Source: Alphaproteobacteria bacterium
GTDB lineage: Bacteria > Pseudomonadota > Alphaproteobacteria > Geminicoccales > Geminicoccaceae
Assembly (NCBI GenBank): GCA_030431615.1
Contig: JAUIID010000022.1
Location: 1-40,711 of the forward strand
Direction: 5' to 3'
DNA: 40,711 nt
Position numbers and translations under genes: made by a program. Of this stretch, positions 1 to 19,013 are shown piece by piece. Under the pieces are notes generated by a model that worked only from the letters and a program-made list of their open reading frames with translations, did not search any database and was not told the DNA's origin. Numbering within the stretch: position 1 is the first letter of the stretch; each line of letters opens with the position of its first letter.

Positions 1-1838
1 CCGGCGACTTCCTGTTCGAGCTGGAGCGCAGCTTCGACTGGCCGTTCTTCGATCCCGAGCGCGGCGGCGATCCGCTGCTCTGGCAGCACCTTTTCTGGAT
101 CTTCGGCCACCCCGAGGTCTACATCATCTTCCTGCCCTCCATCGCGATTGCCGCGATGGTGGTGCCGACCGCCGCCCAGACGCCGATCGTCGGCTATTCC
201 TGGATCGTCCTCTCGGCCGTCGGCACCGGCTTCCTGTCGTTCGGCCTCTGGGTCCACCACATGTTCACGACGGGCCTGCCGGCGATCTCGCTGGGCTTCT
301 TCTCGGCCGCATCGGAGGCGGTCGTGATCCCGACCGGCGTGCAGCTCTTCGCCTTTGTCGCCACCCTGATGGTCGGCAGGGTCAGCCGCAGCGTGCCGAT
401 GCTCTACATTGCCGGCGCCCTCGCCGTCTTCACCGCCGGCGGCCTCACCGGCGTCATGCTGGCGCTGGCACCGTTCGACTGGCAGGTCCACGACACCTAT
501 TTCGTCGTCGCCCACCTCCACTACACGCTGTTCGGCGGCATGGTCTTCCCGGTGCTGGCCGGCGTCTACTACTTCTTCCCGATCTTCACCAAGAAGCTGC
601 TCTCGCCCCGTCTCGGCACGTGGTCCTTCTGGCTCATCTTCACAGGCTTCAACATCACCTTCCTGCCGATGCACTTCACCGGGCTCATGGGCATGCCACG
701 GCGCGTCTTCACCTATCCGGGCGGGCTGGGCTGGGACTGGCCCAACATGATCTCGACGCTCGGCGCCTTCGTCGTCGCCGCCGGCTTCCTCGTCTTCACC
801 TGGGATCTGCTCCGCCCGAAGGGGCGCCAGCCACTGACCCCGCGCAACCCCTGGAATGCCGGCACACTGGAGTGGTCGCACGACGTGCCGGAGGAAGCCT
901 GGGGGGTGCGCTCCATCCCCTATGTCGAGAGCCGCTACCCGCTCTGGGACCAGCCCCGCATCGTCGAGCGGATGGATGCCGGGCGATACTACCTCCCGGA
1001 CGCCGAGGAGGGGCTGCGCGAGACCCTGGTCACCACGGTCATGGACGCGAAGCCCATCCAGTGCCTGCGCGTCGGCGGCCCGACCTGGATCACCCTCTTC
1101 GCCGCCGCCTTCACCGGCGGGGCGTTCATCTTCCCGACGTTCCACCTCTACCCGCCGGCCATCGTCTCGGCCTGCCTCGCCATTCTCTGCGTCGTCTGGT
1201 GGCTGTGGACGGGCACGGCCCCGCTGCCGGAGAAGCCGGCGAAGGACGTGGGCCTCGGCCTCAGCCTGCCGATCTACGCCTCGGGGCCGGCGGCGCCCGG
1301 CTGGTGGGGCATGTGGATCACCATGCTCGGCGATTCGACCGCGTTTGCCAGCATCGTCTTCGGCTTCTTCTTCTACTGGACCGCGACCCCGGCCTTCCCG
1401 CCGGAGGGCGCCGTCCACGCGCATGCGGGCTGGGTGGCGTCGGGCGGCCTGCTGCTCGTCGCTGCCTGGCTCGCCACCGTTGCGGCCCGCCGGGCCAATG
1501 GCGACGGCCACGTCCGACCGGCGCGGCTGGCGCTGGCCGGTGGTGCCGCCTGCGCGGTGGCGGGTGCCACAGCGCTCGTCTGGTCGCTCCTTGCCGCCGG
1601 GCTCGAGCCGACGAGCCACGTCTATCCGGCCATCATTTATGCCATCGTCGTCTGGGTCGTGGTCCATATCGGCGCCGGCATCATCATGCAGGCCTACTGC
1701 CTGGCCCGCAGCATCGCCCGCCGCATGACCCCCGAGCATGATGCCGACATCCAGAACGTTACGCTCTTCTGGCACTTCCTCTGCCTGCAGGTGCTGGTGG
1801 CGGCGGCCGTGATCGGCCTCGTGCCGAGGCTGCTCTGA
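1..1838 (+). CDS. ctaD: Cytochrome c oxidase subunit I (fused I-III, caa3/aa3 type), 5'-truncated
   Basis: Catalytic subunit of a haem-copper terminal oxidase in the inner membrane, reducing O2 with electrons from cytochrome c and pumping protons. The frame is open from base 3, so the N-terminus lies outside the window. The visible part carries the CuB/tyrosine motif FGHPEVY (bases 105-125), the CuB His pair in WVHHMF and the haem ligand region VAHLHYTL. Subunit I ends near base 850. After a linker, a second membrane domain containing WWGMWITMLGDSTAFASIVF and a late NVTLFWHF resembles subunit III, so this is probably a I-III fusion. The next gene starts 1 bp after its stop, indicating one operon. 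The oxidase assignment is very secure; the subunit III fusion is fairly secure. Confidence 0.95.
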   Translation, partial: GDFLFELERSFDWPFFDPERGGDPLLWQHLFWIFGHPEVYIIFLPSIAIAAMVVPTAAQTPIVGYSWIVLSAVGTGFLSFGLWVHHMFTTGLPAISLGFFSAASEAVVIPTGVQLFAFVATLMVGRVSRSVPMLYIAGALAVFTAGGLTGVMLALAPFDWQVHDTYFVVAHLHYTLFGGMVFPVLAGVYYFFPIFTKKLLSPRLGTWSFWLIFTGFNITFLPMHFTGLMGMPRRVFTYPGGLGWDWPNMISTLGAFVVAAGFLVFTWDLLRPKGRQPLTPRNPWNAGTLEWSHDVPEEAWGVRSIPYVESRYPLWDQPRIVERMDAGRYYLPDAEEGLRETLVTTVMDAKPIQCLRVGGPTWITLFAAAFTGGAFIFPTFHLYPPAIVSACLAILCVVWWLWTGTAPLPEKPAKDVGLGLSLPIYASGPAAPGWWGMWITMLGDSTAFASIVFGFFFYWTATPAFPPEGAVHAHAGWVASGGLLLVAAWLATVAARRANGDGHVRPARLALAGGAACAVAGATALVWSLLAAGLEPTSHVYPAIIYAIVVWVVVHIGAGIIMQAYCLARSIARRMTPEHDADIQNVTLFWHFLCLQVLVAAAVIGLVPRLL

Positions 1839-1839
1839 G

Positions 1840-2247
1840 ATGTCCCGGCTGCACCCCGACGAGGAACGCCGCAGCTTCGCCGAGGAGGCCGACAGCCTCT
1901 GGCGAATCGCTTTCGGCCCGCTCATCTGGAGCGCCCATTTCCTCCTCTGCTATGTCGGGGCAGCGCTGGTCTGCGCCAGGCTCGGCGGCACTGAGGCGAC
2001 GCTCGCCTGGCTCCGCCTCGGCATCGGCGGGGTCACCGTCCTGGCCCTTGCCGGCATCGCCTGGGTCGGCTGGCAGGCCTGGCGGCAATGGGACTTCCTC
2101 GACGACTACGACCATGTCCACGACCGGGCGGTAGCGGAGGACCGGCACGAGTTTCTCGGCCACGCCTCCTTCCTCCTGGCAGTGATCTCGTTCGTCGGCG
2201 TCGTCTACGTCGCCCTGCCGGCCGCTTTCGGGGTGGGCTGCCAATGA
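1840..2247 (+). CDS. Small integral membrane protein of the oxidase operon
   Basis: A 135-residue protein with a charged N-terminal tail (about residues 1-23) followed by three or four hydrophobic segments (about 26-46, 55-76 and 105-130). I do not recognise a named family with certainty. It starts 1 bp after ctaD, and its stop overlaps the next start (ATGA), so it is translationally locked into the oxidase operon. By position it could be an accessory or assembly subunit of the caa3 oxidase. That role is inference from context only; no redox or metal-binding motif is visible. Confidence 0.75.
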   Translation: MSRLHPDEERRSFAEEADSLWRIAFGPLIWSAHFLLCYVGAALVCARLGGTEATLAWLRLGIGGVTVLALAGIAWVGWQAWRQWDFLDDYDHVHDRAVAEDRHEFLGHASFLLAVISFVGVVYVALPAAFGVGCQ

Positions 2248-2828
2248 CCCGCGCCTTCTGCCTCGCCCTTGGCCTCGCCCTCTGCGCCGCCGCCTGGACG
2301 ATCGGCGAGCCGTTCTCGCTCTGGCCCTTCGCCGACCACATGCTCCGCCACATGACGGTGGTGGCCATCGCCACGCCGCTGCTCGCCCTGGGCCTCGCCC
2401 CGCTCGGCCTCGGTGCCGCCATCCCGCCTTTAAGTGCGGCCGTCATCGAGTTCCTCGTCGTCTGGGGCTGGCACCTGCCGGCGGCCCATGCGGCGGCACA
2501 GACCTCGACCGGCTGGTTCCTCGCCGAGCAGGCGTCTTTCCTCGCAGCGGGCATGGCGATCTGGCTCAGCGTCCTCGCCAGCGGCCGGGCACTCGCCGGC
2601 GTGGGCGGGCTCCTCCTCACCTCGATGCACATGACGCTGCTCGGCGCCCTCCTGCTCCTCGCCCCCTCGCCGCTCTACCCAGCCGCCATCTGCGGCAGCC
2701 TCGCCGACCAGCAGGTCGGCGGCATGCTGATGCTCGGCATCGGCACGCCCGTCTATCTCCTGGCGGCGCTGGCCCTCCTCGCCCGGCTTCTGGCGGGCGA
2801 CCGGCCACGCGCGGGGCAGCCGGCATGA
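2244..2828 (+). CDS. ctaG: CtaG-like cytochrome c oxidase assembly membrane protein (short form)
   Basis: A 194-residue polytopic membrane protein with about five hydrophobic segments. The HMLRHM motif followed by ATPLLALGLAPLG, plus later membrane-embedded His/Met (TSMHMTLLGALLLL), resemble the caa3-type CtaG family, which assists copper-site assembly of cytochrome oxidase. Typical members are appreciably longer, so this is a short version. The chosen ATG at 2244 overlaps the preceding stop by 4 bp, and its own stop overlaps the next start (ATGA at 2825-2828). An in-frame start further upstream would run deep into the preceding gene. The family call is good; the copper role is from family knowledge. 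Confidence 0.75.
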   Translation: MTRAFCLALGLALCAAAWTIGEPFSLWPFADHMLRHMTVVAIATPLLALGLAPLGLGAAIPPLSAAVIEFLVVWGWHLPAAHAAAQTSTGWFLAEQASFLAAGMAIWLSVLASGRALAGVGGLLLTSMHMTLLGALLLLAPSPLYPAAICGSLADQQVGGMLMLGIGTPVYLLAALALLARLLAGDRPRAGQPA

Positions 2829-15384: not shown

Positions 15385-15612
15385 TGTGTTCTCCTTGTCT
15401 TTTCTCGCACCGGCGTACGCCGCGCGTGGCCCGCCCCGAAGGCGGCAAATGGGCGCTTCCGGGGTCGTATTCCCAAATTTCGGTGAATCGAATTCTGGAC
15501 TTTCCTGACCCCATACCGCATATAGGGGCTTCGTCAGTTTTGCCCAATGCACAGCGGCACGCGCGGCGGCGGCATACTGGTCTACTTAACTCTAACGGGT
15601 TGGGGGATCGGC

Positions 15613-16782
15613 ATGATCCAGTCCTACGGCGGCGTGGCCGCGATGATTCGCGTCTCCACTCCAGAGATTCCGGTGGTCGGCATTCGGCCACACCTCATCG
15701 AGCGACGCGCGAGCGACGTGCTCGCCGCGTTTCCGGGTGACGTGCTCTACGCGGTCAAGTGCAACGACCATCCGGTCGTCCTGCGCGCCCTCTTCGACGC
15801 CGGCGTGCGTCACTTCGACACCGCCTCGATCAAGGAGATCCGCCTCGTGCGCGGTCTCTTTCCGGAGGCGGCCTGCCACTTCATGCATCCGGTCAAGAGC
15901 CTCGAGGCGATCGCCGAGGCGTACTTCGCGCATGGCGTGCGCCGCTACGTGCTCGACCATCCGCGCGAGCTCGACAAGATCGTGGCCGCCACCGGCGCCG
16001 CCGAGGATCTCGAGCTCTTCGTCCGCGTCGCCGTCCCGGGCGACGGTGCGCTCCTGACGCTCACCGGCAAGTTCGGCGCAACGGTCGAGGAATCGATCGC
16101 ACTTCTCAGGCAGTGCAAGACTGTGGCCCGGAGCACGGGCGTCACCTTCCACGTTGGCTCCCAGTGCCTCGCCCCGCAGGCCTTCGAGCGGGCGATCGGC
16201 ATCGTCGCCGGCATCATCGACGAGGTGGGCGGCATCGACCATCTCGACGTGGGCGGCGGCTTCCCGGCCGCCTACACGGGTGACGAGCCGCCCTTCGAGG
16301 CCTTCGTCGCGGCCATCCTCCGGGCGGTCGGCGAGCACGGGCTCACTTGCGGCCTGCAGTGCGAGCCCGGCCGTCTCCTCGTCGCCGACGGCGCTTCCGT
16401 GTTCGCGCGGGTCGAGCTGCGCCGCGGCCAGGCGCTCTACCTGAACGACGGCGTCTACGGCAATCTCGCCGAGCTCAAGTGGGTCGGGCCGCAGTTCCCG
16501 ACGCGCGCCCTCGGCGTGCACGGGCCACGCGGCGGCCGCCAGGTCAGCTTCGACCTCTTCGGCCCGACCTGCGACAGCATCGACAGCATGCCCGGGCCGC
16601 ACTGGCTCGCGGCCGATGTCGCCGACGGCGACTGGATCGAGGTCGGCATGATGGGCGCCTATTCCTGCGCGCTCCGCACCGACTTCAACGGCTTCGCGGC
16701 GGCCCACACCGTGCTGCTGGACGACGAGGCCTGGTACGATGTGACCCGGCTCGGTACCGACAGGCTCGCCTGCGCGGCCTGA
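15613..16782 (+). CDS. Fold-III PLP-dependent ornithine/lysine-type decarboxylase
   Basis: A 389-residue enzyme of the alanine-racemase-fold decarboxylases (ODC, L/ODC, DAP and carboxynorspermidine decarboxylase). Visible residues are PLP Lys49 in YAVKCN, His180 in HVGSQ, the glycine-rich phosphate loop GGGFP (214-218), EPGR (251-254) and the cross-subunit catalytic Cys320 in FGPTCDSID. It would make a diamine such as putrescine or cadaverine, feeding polyamine synthesis. ATG 15613 is chosen because GGGGGA precedes it by 6 nt; an ATG at 15547 is in frame but without such a site. It is divergent from yfcG, with no polyamine genes beside it. ODC is slightly favoured over lysine by the GPTCDS motif context. 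Confidence 0.9.
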   Translation: MIQSYGGVAAMIRVSTPEIPVVGIRPHLIERRASDVLAAFPGDVLYAVKCNDHPVVLRALFDAGVRHFDTASIKEIRLVRGLFPEAACHFMHPVKSLEAIAEAYFAHGVRRYVLDHPRELDKIVAATGAAEDLELFVRVAVPGDGALLTLTGKFGATVEESIALLRQCKTVARSTGVTFHVGSQCLAPQAFERAIGIVAGIIDEVGGIDHLDVGGGFPAAYTGDEPPFEAFVAAILRAVGEHGLTCGLQCEPGRLLVADGASVFARVELRRGQALYLNDGVYGNLAELKWVGPQFPTRALGVHGPRGGRQVSFDLFGPTCDSIDSMPGPHWLAADVADGDWIEVGMMGAYSCALRTDFNGFAAAHTVLLDDEAWYDVTRLGTDRLACAA

Positions 16783-16897: not shown

Positions 16898-16925
16898 GGG
16901 CGCCCGAGAGTTGTCTCGGGCGCCC
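16898..16925 (-). terminator. Rho-independent terminator of the autotransporter gene
   Basis: A perfect 12-bp stem (GGGCGCCCGAGA, 16898-16909, with 16914-16925) has a 4-nt loop. Read on the minus strand it is followed by CCTTCTTTTTC, a T-rich tail, so it fits termination of the leftward autotransporter gene about 90 bp upstream. Confidence 0.75.
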
Positions 16926-17015
16926 TGAGCAGGACCACTGGCGATGGTCGAGGCGGCCGTGGGGTGCGGCCGCGACACCGGCGCGCCCCAAGGGGCGCGC
17001 CCGTGTTCCGGGGTG

Positions 17016-19013
17016 TCAGAAGCGGTAGTTGAAGCGGGCGGTGATGGCGTGGTCGGTCTCGACCCCGACCTGCTTGCTCAGCGCGTAGTCGGCGCTGAGC
17101 GAGAGCGCCTCGCCCATGTCGAGCACCGAGCCGAGCCTGAGCCCCACCGTCTCGTAGCCCTCGCGCTCGATCGTCTCGGTCTGGTCCAGGCCGCCCATCG
17201 CCTGCTCGCTGACCTGCACCTGGTAGTCGTCGAGGTGCAGGCTGCGCGTGTAGCTGAGCCCGCCCGTCAGGGTCAGGCCGAAGCGCCGGTCGAGGGCGAT
17301 CCGGTCACCGGTGGCGTTCAGGCCGAGGCTCGCCACGGTGTCGTTCACCTCCGCCCCGGAATAGGTCAGGTCGGAGACATAGGGGTTGCTGATGGTGTAG
17401 CCGTCGATCTGCTGCTGGGTGTGGGTGATGTTGACCCAGGGCTGCAGCCAGGAGCTGCCGACGCGGTACGCCTTGCTGGCGGTCTGCGAGAGCGCCATGG
17501 TGCGGCCGCCATGGCTGGCCGCGTTGCGCTCGCCGACCAGGGTGTCGAAGCTGCTGTGGTCGTACTGGTCGTCGGCGAAGCTGGCCGTGGTCCGCAGGTC
17601 GATGCCGGCGACCTGGGTGTTGAGGTAGAGGCTGACGGCGTCGCTCTGGCTGTCGAGGCGGCTCGAGGTGACCCCGTTGGTGTAGTCGCTGTCGCTGCCG
17701 TAGCGGGACATGACGACGCCGAGCATGCTGCCATCACCGAGCGTGTAGTTCAGGCCGAGCCCGCTGTCGGGGCGCTGGCTCTGGGTCAGCCGCATGAAGC
17801 CCGACCGGCTCGGGTCGCTCGTGTCGAGCTCGTAGGCGTCGAGGGCGGCGGCGTCGCGGTCACCGACGAAGAAGGTGGTGAAGCCCTGCCGCTGGGCCGG
17901 GCCCTGGGCGTCGAGGGCGAGCAAGAGGCCGTCGGCGATGTCGTCCTGCAGCTGCTGGGTGGCGCCGCTGCCGGCGGCCAGCGTGTTGGCCCAGTCCCAG
18001 CCACGCGTCAGGTAGTGGTTGTAGACCTCGGCCAGGATCTCCTGGCCGCGGGCGCCGAAATGGCTGCCGTCGAAGTAGAGCGCCGTGCTGTCGGAGTTCG
18101 CCGCGTCCGCCGTCGTCACGTTGTCGAACCCGTAACGACCAGGGTCCGCCATGATCCGCTCGAACACCGTGAACATGTCGACAGCGACCACGTTGTCGCG
18201 CGCATTGACGATGTTCCGCAGATTGCTGTTCAGGACGTTCGTGCGGTTCGCAGCACCGGTCTTGGTGTCGGGCACGCTGCCCCAGTCGTGCACCAGGGTG
18301 ACGAAGACCCGCCTTCCATCGCTCGCGGCCCCTGCGGCCCGCAGCTCGTCGAGCTGGTTCGTGTAGCCCGTGACGGCATCGGTGGCCCAGCCCGGCTTGG
18401 CGGCGATGATGTCGTTGTAGCCCATGTAGACGATGGTCAGGTCGTTGCCCTGCAGGACATGCGCGTCGGCCTTCCACTGGTCGACCTGGGCCTTGAGGGT
18501 GTTGTCACGCTCGTTGAAATTGCTGTCGATGCCGTCGCCGGCGACGCGGTCGTTCCCGATCCCGTCATCGTTGGCGCCGGCGGAGAGGAAATAGGGGTTG
18601 GTGCTGGCGGCCGAGGCCTTGCCGCGAGCATAGGAGAAGAGATCGCTGTCACTGCCACCGGCGGCGGCCACGAGGCGGTTCGACCAGAGGTCCTCAGGTG
18701 CCAGGCAGGTCGCCTTGGCCGTGCCGCTGCGCGGCTCGCAGGAGCGCTGCGGGTCGTAAGGATCGGAATAGCTGTCGCCGAAGACGAAGAGCCGGCCGAG
18801 CTTGTCCGGGCTCTCGCTGCCGGCCGTCGCATAGGGATTGGGGACGGCGAAGTCGACGACCGGCGGCGTGCCGCCACCCGTGCCACCCGTGCCGCCGGAT
18901 GGGGTCGACGGCGTACCGCCCCCGCCACTCCCGCCGCCGCCGCTGCAGGCGGAGAGCGCCAGCAGCGCCATCGCGCTGAAACCCGAGATCGACCAGTGGT
19001 TCCTGTTAATCAT
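17016..19013 (-). CDS. Autotransporter SGNH/GDSL esterase with lipoprotein-type signal
   Basis: A 665-residue outer-membrane esterase of the EstA type. The signal ends in a lipobox, LSAC (Cys23), followed by a Gly/Ser/Thr/Pro linker (about 24-51). The SGNH hydrolase passenger has GDSYSDP (nucleophile Ser81), GYNDI near 200 and DGSHFGARG near 313 carrying the catalytic Asp and His. From about residue 390 to the C-terminal Phe (ARFNYRF), amphipathic strands form the autotransporter beta-barrel. It would hydrolyse esters at the cell surface. A lipobox on an autotransporter passenger is unusual, as most have plain Sec signals. AGGA lies 8 nt before the ATG. It is monocistronic, with a terminator at 16898-16925. 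Confidence 0.92.
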   Translation of the reverse strand: MINRNHWSISGFSAMALLALSACSGGGGSGGGGTPSTPSGGTGGTGGGTPPVVDFAVPNPYATAGSESPDKLGRLFVFGDSYSDPYDPQRSCEPRSGTAKATCLAPEDLWSNRLVAAAGGSDSDLFSYARGKASAASTNPYFLSAGANDDGIGNDRVAGDGIDSNFNERDNTLKAQVDQWKADAHVLQGNDLTIVYMGYNDIIAAKPGWATDAVTGYTNQLDELRAAGAASDGRRVFVTLVHDWGSVPDTKTGAANRTNVLNSNLRNIVNARDNVVAVDMFTVFERIMADPGRYGFDNVTTADAANSDSTALYFDGSHFGARGQEILAEVYNHYLTRGWDWANTLAAGSGATQQLQDDIADGLLLALDAQGPAQRQGFTTFFVGDRDAAALDAYELDTSDPSRSGFMRLTQSQRPDSGLGLNYTLGDGSMLGVVMSRYGSDSDYTNGVTSSRLDSQSDAVSLYLNTQVAGIDLRTTASFADDQYDHSSFDTLVGERNAASHGGRTMALSQTASKAYRVGSSWLQPWVNITHTQQQIDGYTISNPYVSDLTYSGAEVNDTVASLGLNATGDRIALDRRFGLTLTGGLSYTRSLHLDDYQVQVSEQAMGGLDQTETIEREGYETVGLRLGSVLDMGEALSLSADYALSKQVGVETDHAITARFNYRF

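Follow-up and report, generated by a model that had tools for sequence, protein, structure and literature searches.

A conserved lipoprotein-type signal and flexible tether on EstA-like SGNH esterase autotransporters of Geminicoccaceae and other proteobacteria

The window analysed here, 40,711 nucleotides of contig JAUIID010000022.1 (positions 1 to 40,711) of a Geminicoccaceae genome (GCA_030431615.1), encodes an autotransporter SGNH esterase that begins with a lipoprotein-type signal followed by a flexible spacer. This arrangement had been recognized in a preliminary description of the DNA, and we found the signal to be conserved in relatives. We put at roughly 0.6 the probability that the protein is a lipoprotein processed by Lgt and LspA, acting as a surface esterase held both by its barrel and by an N-terminal lipid that probably sits in the outer leaflet. 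Lipidated autotransporters as such are already known, and NalP, SphB1, AlpA and CapA have been described (PMC9289746, PMC8151025; cited papers, here and below, are represented by excerpts). Of most interest here are the lipobox pattern across the family and the series of tether lengths. No lipidated GDSL autotransporter was found in the open-licence literature, a coverage that leaves most subscription papers outside.

Architecture of the window protein

The features of the gene are collected in Table 1. Ahead of Cys23, the sequence MINRNHWSISGFSAMALLA consists of a basic residue and then a hydrophobic, uncharged stretch. Arg4 lies within the first seven residues, and the N-terminus matches the PROSITE-type pattern, the looser of the two lipobox tests used here. 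The LSAC tetrapeptide also fits the strict pattern [LVI][ASTVI][GAS]C, as given in PMC5472700 and PMC8151025. From Cys23, 35 residues (SGGGGSGGGGTPSTPSGGTGGTGGGTPPVVDFAVP) lead to Asn59, which opens an Asn-Pro-Tyr motif and is invariant across the 19-row alignment of relatives. The LSAC ending of the signal and the long Gly/Ser/Thr/Pro linker behind it were both as first described.

Table 1 Features of the esterase gene and of two subtilisin loci of the same genome; coordinates are those of the window unless a locus is named
Feature	Position	Strand	Basis
Whole ORF	17016..19013	-	ATG start; 665 aa running from the lipoprotein signal through spacer and SGNH esterase to the autotransporter barrel
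Signal peptide, residues 1-22	18948..19013	-	Sequence; basic residue within first 7, then hydrophobic stretch
Lipobox LSAC, residues 20-23	18945..18956	-	Strict [LVI][ASTVI][GAS]C and PROSITE-type match
Cys23 codon, predicted lipid acceptor	18945-18947	-	Last codon of LSAC
Flexible Gly/Ser/Thr/Pro spacer, residues 24-58 (35 aa)	18840..18944	-	86% G/S/T/P/A; low pLDDT
SGNH/GDSL esterase passenger, residues 59-340	17994..18839	-	PF00657; VIA matches to ChoE, PlaA
Catalytic Ser81 codon (GDSYS)	18771..18773	-	Ser in 16/19 relatives, lost in 3
Catalytic Asp315 to His318 (DGSH)	18060..18071	-	Kept in 16/19 relatives
Long helix, residues 321-360, passenger end running toward barrel	17934..18053	-	AlphaFold secondary structure
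C-terminal beta-barrel, residues 378-665, ending FNYRF	17019..17882	-	AlphaFold; Foldseek and VIA; profile match to 9oqa
Terminator-like perfect 12-bp inverted repeat, 4-base loop, then T run on minus strand	16898..16925	-	Read from sequence, unscored
Lipobox/poly-Gly subtilisin proteins of the window genome	L103:2687-5080 (G000:C4) and L107:310-2502 (G000:C216)	-	S8 search

The only Pfam domain in the protein is PF00657 (Lipase_GDSL), which covers residues 75–329 with 52.7 bits against a cut-off of 23.6; an S8 passenger, the mark of the NalP/SphB1 type, is not present. The catalytic residues Ser81, Asn200, Asp315 and His318 are all intact. A PDB sequence search with the single window protein gave no match. 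Supplied with the 19 sequences, AlphaFold predicted an SGNH fold over residues 74–340, a helix at residues 321–360 and about 12 barrel strands from residue 378 to the end, with a mean pLDDT of 74.3, a pTM of 0.73 and uncertain relative placement of the domains. Residues 1–54 were predicted to be disordered (pLDDT below 50), confidence was low at 378–416, and values over 417–665 were mostly 73–94.

Structural comparison placed the model closest to EstA of Pseudomonas aeruginosa. This full-length autotransporter was the top Foldseek match (3kvn, E = 4e-20), followed by AaaA and EspP and, further down, by the NalP translocator (1uyn, E = 4e-7), which has the barrel fold in common with the window protein. 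EstA was also the best full-length match in VIA-align (Z = 22.2 over 508 residues, 19% identity); the two proteins share an SGNH passenger, a long C-terminal helix and a 12-strand barrel. The passenger aligned with ChoE and Legionella PlaA at Z of about 25, from model residue 55–60 onward; both of these share the passenger fold but were solved as single-domain enzymes without a barrel. Independently of the model, a family profile compared with PDB sequences matched the barrel of a single one, AaaA of P. aeruginosa (9oqa, E = 2.1e-6), and it matched passengers with E = 1.5e-8 and 3e-11 (ChoE 6uqv family, PlaA 8a24 family).

An SGNH passenger with the Ser, Asn and Asp-His residues, joined to a barrel by a helix, characterizes EstA-type GDSL autotransporters, and all of these elements were found. 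The C-terminal barrel of about 12 strands with a terminal Phe (AlphaFold; matches to EstA, EspP, NalP and AaaA) is that of a type Va autotransporter. An ordinary signal without a spacer is typical of the EstA type, not defining, and in this respect the window protein differs: the structural alignment with EstA starts only at model residue 63, and the lipobox and 35-residue spacer have no counterpart in the EstA structure. By comparison with EstA, we infer that the helix would lie inside the barrel and that the passenger would reach the surface through its own barrel. The preliminary identification of an SGNH esterase and a C-terminal beta-barrel was borne out, the barrel by structure and profile comparison and not by Pfam. 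PF03797, the Pfam autotransporter model, matched neither the window protein nor anything else in its genome, a match to this model being an annotation aid and not a definition of type Va. The same model misses both subtilisin C-termini described below, and proteins of this kind may end up annotated simply as GDSL hydrolases or subtilases.

Other known systems share single parts of this architecture. In NalP of Neisseria meningitidis and SphB1 of Bordetella, a type Va autotransporter likewise starts with a lipobox signal (PMC8151025, PMC9289746), a likeness taken from published descriptions. The NalP passenger is a self-cleaving subtilisin (PMC7857515), whereas that of the window protein is an SGNH esterase. 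AaaA, whose passenger stays with the cell (PMC3426542), differs in carrying an aminopeptidase, and searching the text of that paper turned up no mention of a lipoprotein.

Just downstream of the stop codon lies a second inverted repeat, perfect over 10 bp and GC-rich with a 2-base centre (window 16980–17001). The flanking gene at 15547–16782, for a PLP decarboxylase, is convergent with the esterase gene.

Conservation and loss of the lipobox

Matches to the esterase family were obtained in 14 of 60 related genomes and in 12 of 31 genomes of the same taxonomic family. The 18 loci detected when named bacterial genomes were scanned came, among others, from Geminicoccaceae and further alphaproteobacteria, from Hydrogenophaga and Spiribacter, and from a Thioalkalivibrio MAG. 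When more clade members were sought across the phylum, only one of 398 genomes matched, the window's own, and a search of a plasmid collection returned no match.

A lipobox was present in 14 of 19 full-length relatives by the looser pattern and in 12 by the strict one, with members in the alpha-, beta- and gammaproteobacteria, and in all three additional N-terminal fragments. Five rows of the alignment are near copies from Hydrogenophaga, so the independent lineages are fewer than the rows. All lipobox proteins have Lys or Arg within the first seven residues and a spacer that is 70–92% G/S/T/P/A. The residue preceding the lipobox Cys is Ala or Gly in 14 of 14, and this Cys is the sole cysteine of the protein in 10 of 14 (five of the ten being the close Hydrogenophaga copies). 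As proof of a lipobox, the motif in a single sequence is too weak and was set aside: when the first 60 residues of the window protein are shuffled, the PROSITE-type pattern appears 14.5% of the time. We judge the lipobox to be real because it is kept at one place in most of the relatives, and not from the motif alone. Spacer length varies from 10 to 92 residues among relatives and takes values of 35, 24, 22 and 92 within the window's genus; judged from these sequences, the spacer looks like a flexible leash of no fixed length.

Five of the 19 rows lack the lipobox (L041, L043, the second copies of L042 and L044, and L045), and the Gly/Ser/Pro spacer is missing in all five as well. In three of these rows, all paralogues, the catalytic triad is gone: Ser is replaced by Glu or Asp, and the Asp and His are lost. 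These paralogues (L042:5777-7663, L044:5817-7694 and L045:1406-3247) have ordinary signals, and each lies directly downstream of another copy, which in L045 is cut by the contig end; they are possibly pseudo-enzyme partners. A strict match at residue 49 of the L042 paralogue, which follows the ordinary signal of that protein, was not scored as a lipobox.

In a tree of 35 rows built without the N-terminus, the clade was separated from 11 ordinary EstA-like alphaproteobacterial autotransporters with a support of 100/100, and the five lipobox-less rows branched within it. On this tree the lipobox takes 4 changes against a shuffled mean of 11.6, with 0 of 500 shuffles as low, a count that does not tell gain from loss. 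The preliminary description had named orthologues lacking the Cys as evidence against lipidation. Such relatives do exist, but as a refutation they were rejected because they are without the spacer as well and branch inside the clade, three of them being the triad-less paralogues.

The class-wide control set held 25 loci with a match, of which eight were dropped because they were cut at the 5' end. Among the 17 left, none had a strict lipobox and two fitted the looser pattern (L063 and L079). Eleven of these controls are the EstA-like autotransporters of the tree, with no strict lipobox, no Gly-rich spacer and one looser match (L063); the remaining six, whose passengers are short or of another kind, are not in the tree. 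In addition, four soluble SGNH relatives without a barrel (L010, L012, L020 and L025; G025, G020) nest in the clade and have neither lipobox nor spacer, so barrel, lipobox and spacer were apparently lost together.

Topology and function

We propose the following route. The precursor would be exported by Sec, and Cys23 would become the lipidated first residue through Lgt and LspA, as the conserved lipobox suggests; LspA is encoded in the window genome. The C-terminal barrel would then enter the outer membrane and the SGNH passenger would cross through it, as its fold suggests by comparison with EstA. Under the hairpin model, the C-terminal end of the passenger emerges first and the lipidated N-terminus last, and for this reason the lipid would probably come to rest in the outer leaflet, with the flexible tether joining it to the folded head. 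As with EstA, cleavage of the passenger is improbable, and the esterase head would then be held twice, once by helix and barrel and once by the lipid. The enzyme would probably serve to strip acyl groups from envelope- or surface-bound substrates. By the enterobacterial rule, a lipoprotein with no Asp after the lipobox Cys is sorted to the outer membrane; Asp was found there in 0 of 17 lipobox sequences, which by that rule points to outer-membrane sorting.

The preliminary description had offered two topologies, a lipid at the surface or an N-terminus held in the periplasm, and these are the right alternatives. A review of type V secretion from 2021 states that, for lipidated autotransporters, the leaflet in which the lipid ends up, and hence the topology, 'have not been determined' (PMC8151025). 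Tether length bears on the choice. In seven of the 19 rows, only 10–11 residues separate the Cys from the conserved start of the passenger; six of these seven are from Hydrogenophaga, five of them near copies. The model of one Hydrogenophaga member (L036, from a cultured H. pseudoflava; pTM 0.50) is ordered from about residue 29–31, which is 8–10 residues past Cys21 and, by our own arithmetic, at most about 40 Å from it when fully extended. A tether of this length would seem to fall short of the inner leaflet if it had to pass through a barrel plugged by the helix, and we therefore favour an outer-leaflet lipid, a placement that leans on the predicted models. The alphaproteobacterial members, including the window protein, have tethers long enough for either leaflet.

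The opposite topology, in which the tether returns through the barrel lumen beside the helix and the passenger forms a surface loop with both ends fixed on the periplasmic side, is unlikely in our view, though it has points in its favour. Lol delivers lipoproteins to the inner leaflet (PMC5472700), crystal structures leave room in the pore for two extended strands (reviewed in PMC3297439), and 10 of the 17 lipobox sequences have spacers of 14–92 residues. A short tether, as in the seven rows and the L036 model above, could nevertheless hardly span the membrane through a helix-filled pore unless the start of the passenger dips into it.

We give a similarly low weight to release of the kind described for NalP, in which the passenger is clipped off the barrel and the lipid keeps the freed enzyme on the surface for a time (PMC7857515, PMC9289746). 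Candidate proteases are at hand: the window genome also codes for two subtilisins, alike to the esterase in N-terminal arrangement, that could do the cutting. Self-cleavage by an SGNH esterase is not expected, however, and EstA-type passengers remain attached (PMC6555100, PMC13304423). Because the EstA passenger undergoes no cleavage (PMC6555100), the lipid of the window protein would, unlike that of NalP, be a second anchor on a protein already in the membrane. The family also separates two ideas of what the lipid does, as retention after self-cleavage cannot apply to a passenger that, as in EstA, is never released.

The two weakest explanations can be dealt with briefly. That the Cys is a bystander, with signal peptidase I cutting the signal and the spacer serving merely as an exit leader, is improbable: chance produces the motif readily and five relatives manage without it, but the Cys recurs at the same position in 14 of 19 rows from three classes, with Ala or Gly before it and Lys or Arg in the n-region throughout, mostly in otherwise cysteine-free proteins. 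Equally improbable is an outer-membrane lipoprotein whose barrel is only an anchor and whose esterase faces the periplasm without ever crossing, as most Gram-negative lipoproteins do (PMC13304423), given that the domain order, the helix running into the barrel and the 508-residue fold match are those of EstA, whose passenger is surface-exposed.

Gene neighbourhoods gave a lead on the substrate of some members. All five beta- and gammaproteobacterial loci examined, out of eight (L033, L035, L036, L039 and L048), have glycosyltransferase or nucleotide-sugar genes nearby, a setting of surface-polysaccharide loci; in Spiribacter the neighbour is an Acyl_transf_3 acyltransferase. Among the scanned neighbour ORFs of the five alphaproteobacterial loci examined, window included, no glycosyltransferase was found; the neighbours were chosen mechanically and a subset of the ORFs was scanned. 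As the signal is present in the former loci and absent from the latter, we treat the deacylation of surface polysaccharide or LPS as a lead for some of the family and not as a result for the window gene.

The family makes the position of the lipid directly testable, with natural tethers of 10–92 residues on the same enzyme. In most lipobox members the lipobox Cys is the only cysteine, which allows clean labelling, and the enzyme is readily assayed as an esterase. Relatives that naturally lack lipobox and spacer can serve as controls.

Subtilisin autotransporters and the distribution of the signal

We searched the window genome for DNA that would code for lipobox-x-Gly-Gly-Gly and found 5 places, against 12 for a backward control pattern; the pattern alone therefore means little. 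Read individually, the five places yielded the query gene and a single subtilisin ORF, which has a lipobox in frame close to its beginning. A Peptidase_S8 search extended this to two long S8 proteins in the genome, with N-terminal motifs LLLVAAC-GGGGGGSGGG and LLSLTAC-LGGGGGAGGGG. In both, the C-terminus has a terminal Phe and is barrel-like, and it is left unnamed by Pfam.

Two wider surveys followed the S8 proteins. In the first, 50 of 385 genomes of the class matched, and a lipobox was present in 25 of the best 30 loci; its profile consisted of two rows including lipobox and spacer and was thus biased toward them, and the count includes one doubtful lipobox (L121). In the second, the N-terminus was cut from the profile; 24 of 398 genomes of the phylum matched and 22 of 27 loci had a lipobox, mostly preceding Gly and Pro/Thr runs. 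Several genomes occur in both surveys, the window's own among them. Barrels were judged by profile coverage and open-frame length; L166, with 368 aa, has no room for one.

These results do not support the view, expressed in the preliminary description, that lipoprotein autotransporters are rare with NalP as the known example: the two surveys led us to reject it, and SphB1, AlpA and CapA had been described besides (PMC9289746). In the sets read here, most subtilisin autotransporter-type loci have a predicted lipobox. On the strength of the surveys, lipoprotein-type signals appear common on such proteins, and the same module is found on two unrelated passengers. For enzyme autotransporters of this class, the pairing of lipobox and tether looks more frequent than the handful of described cases would imply. 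More tentatively, with a likelihood that we place a little short of even, lipobox and Gly/Pro tether might form a membrane-tether module that is standard at the N-terminus of enzyme autotransporters from Alphaproteobacteria and their relatives, common to SGNH esterases and subtilisins. If so, lipidated autotransporters would be the majority class in this group and no oddity.

On this tentative reading, if the lipid does end outside, autotransporter barrels would form a widespread, Slam-independent route by which bacteria bring their own lipoproteins to the outer leaflet. Surface lipoproteins of the TbpB type, by comparison, are Slam-dependent and, unlike the window protein, have no barrel of their own. 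A TbpB_B_D protein (PF01298) encoded at about 1486-2778(+) of L014 (G010), the locus of a family member, starts much like the window protein, with LALAAC-SGGGGDDD and a long, partly masked Gly/Thr repeat spacer, and is a probable surface lipoprotein. A Slam search of the window genome gave no match, as did the controls of the same search.

Three of the subtilisin loci (L132, L135 and L136; L158 is the same gene as L135) lack a lipobox; the segment immediately ahead of their Gly-rich run is instead hydrophobic, as though the lipid anchor had been exchanged for a membrane segment.
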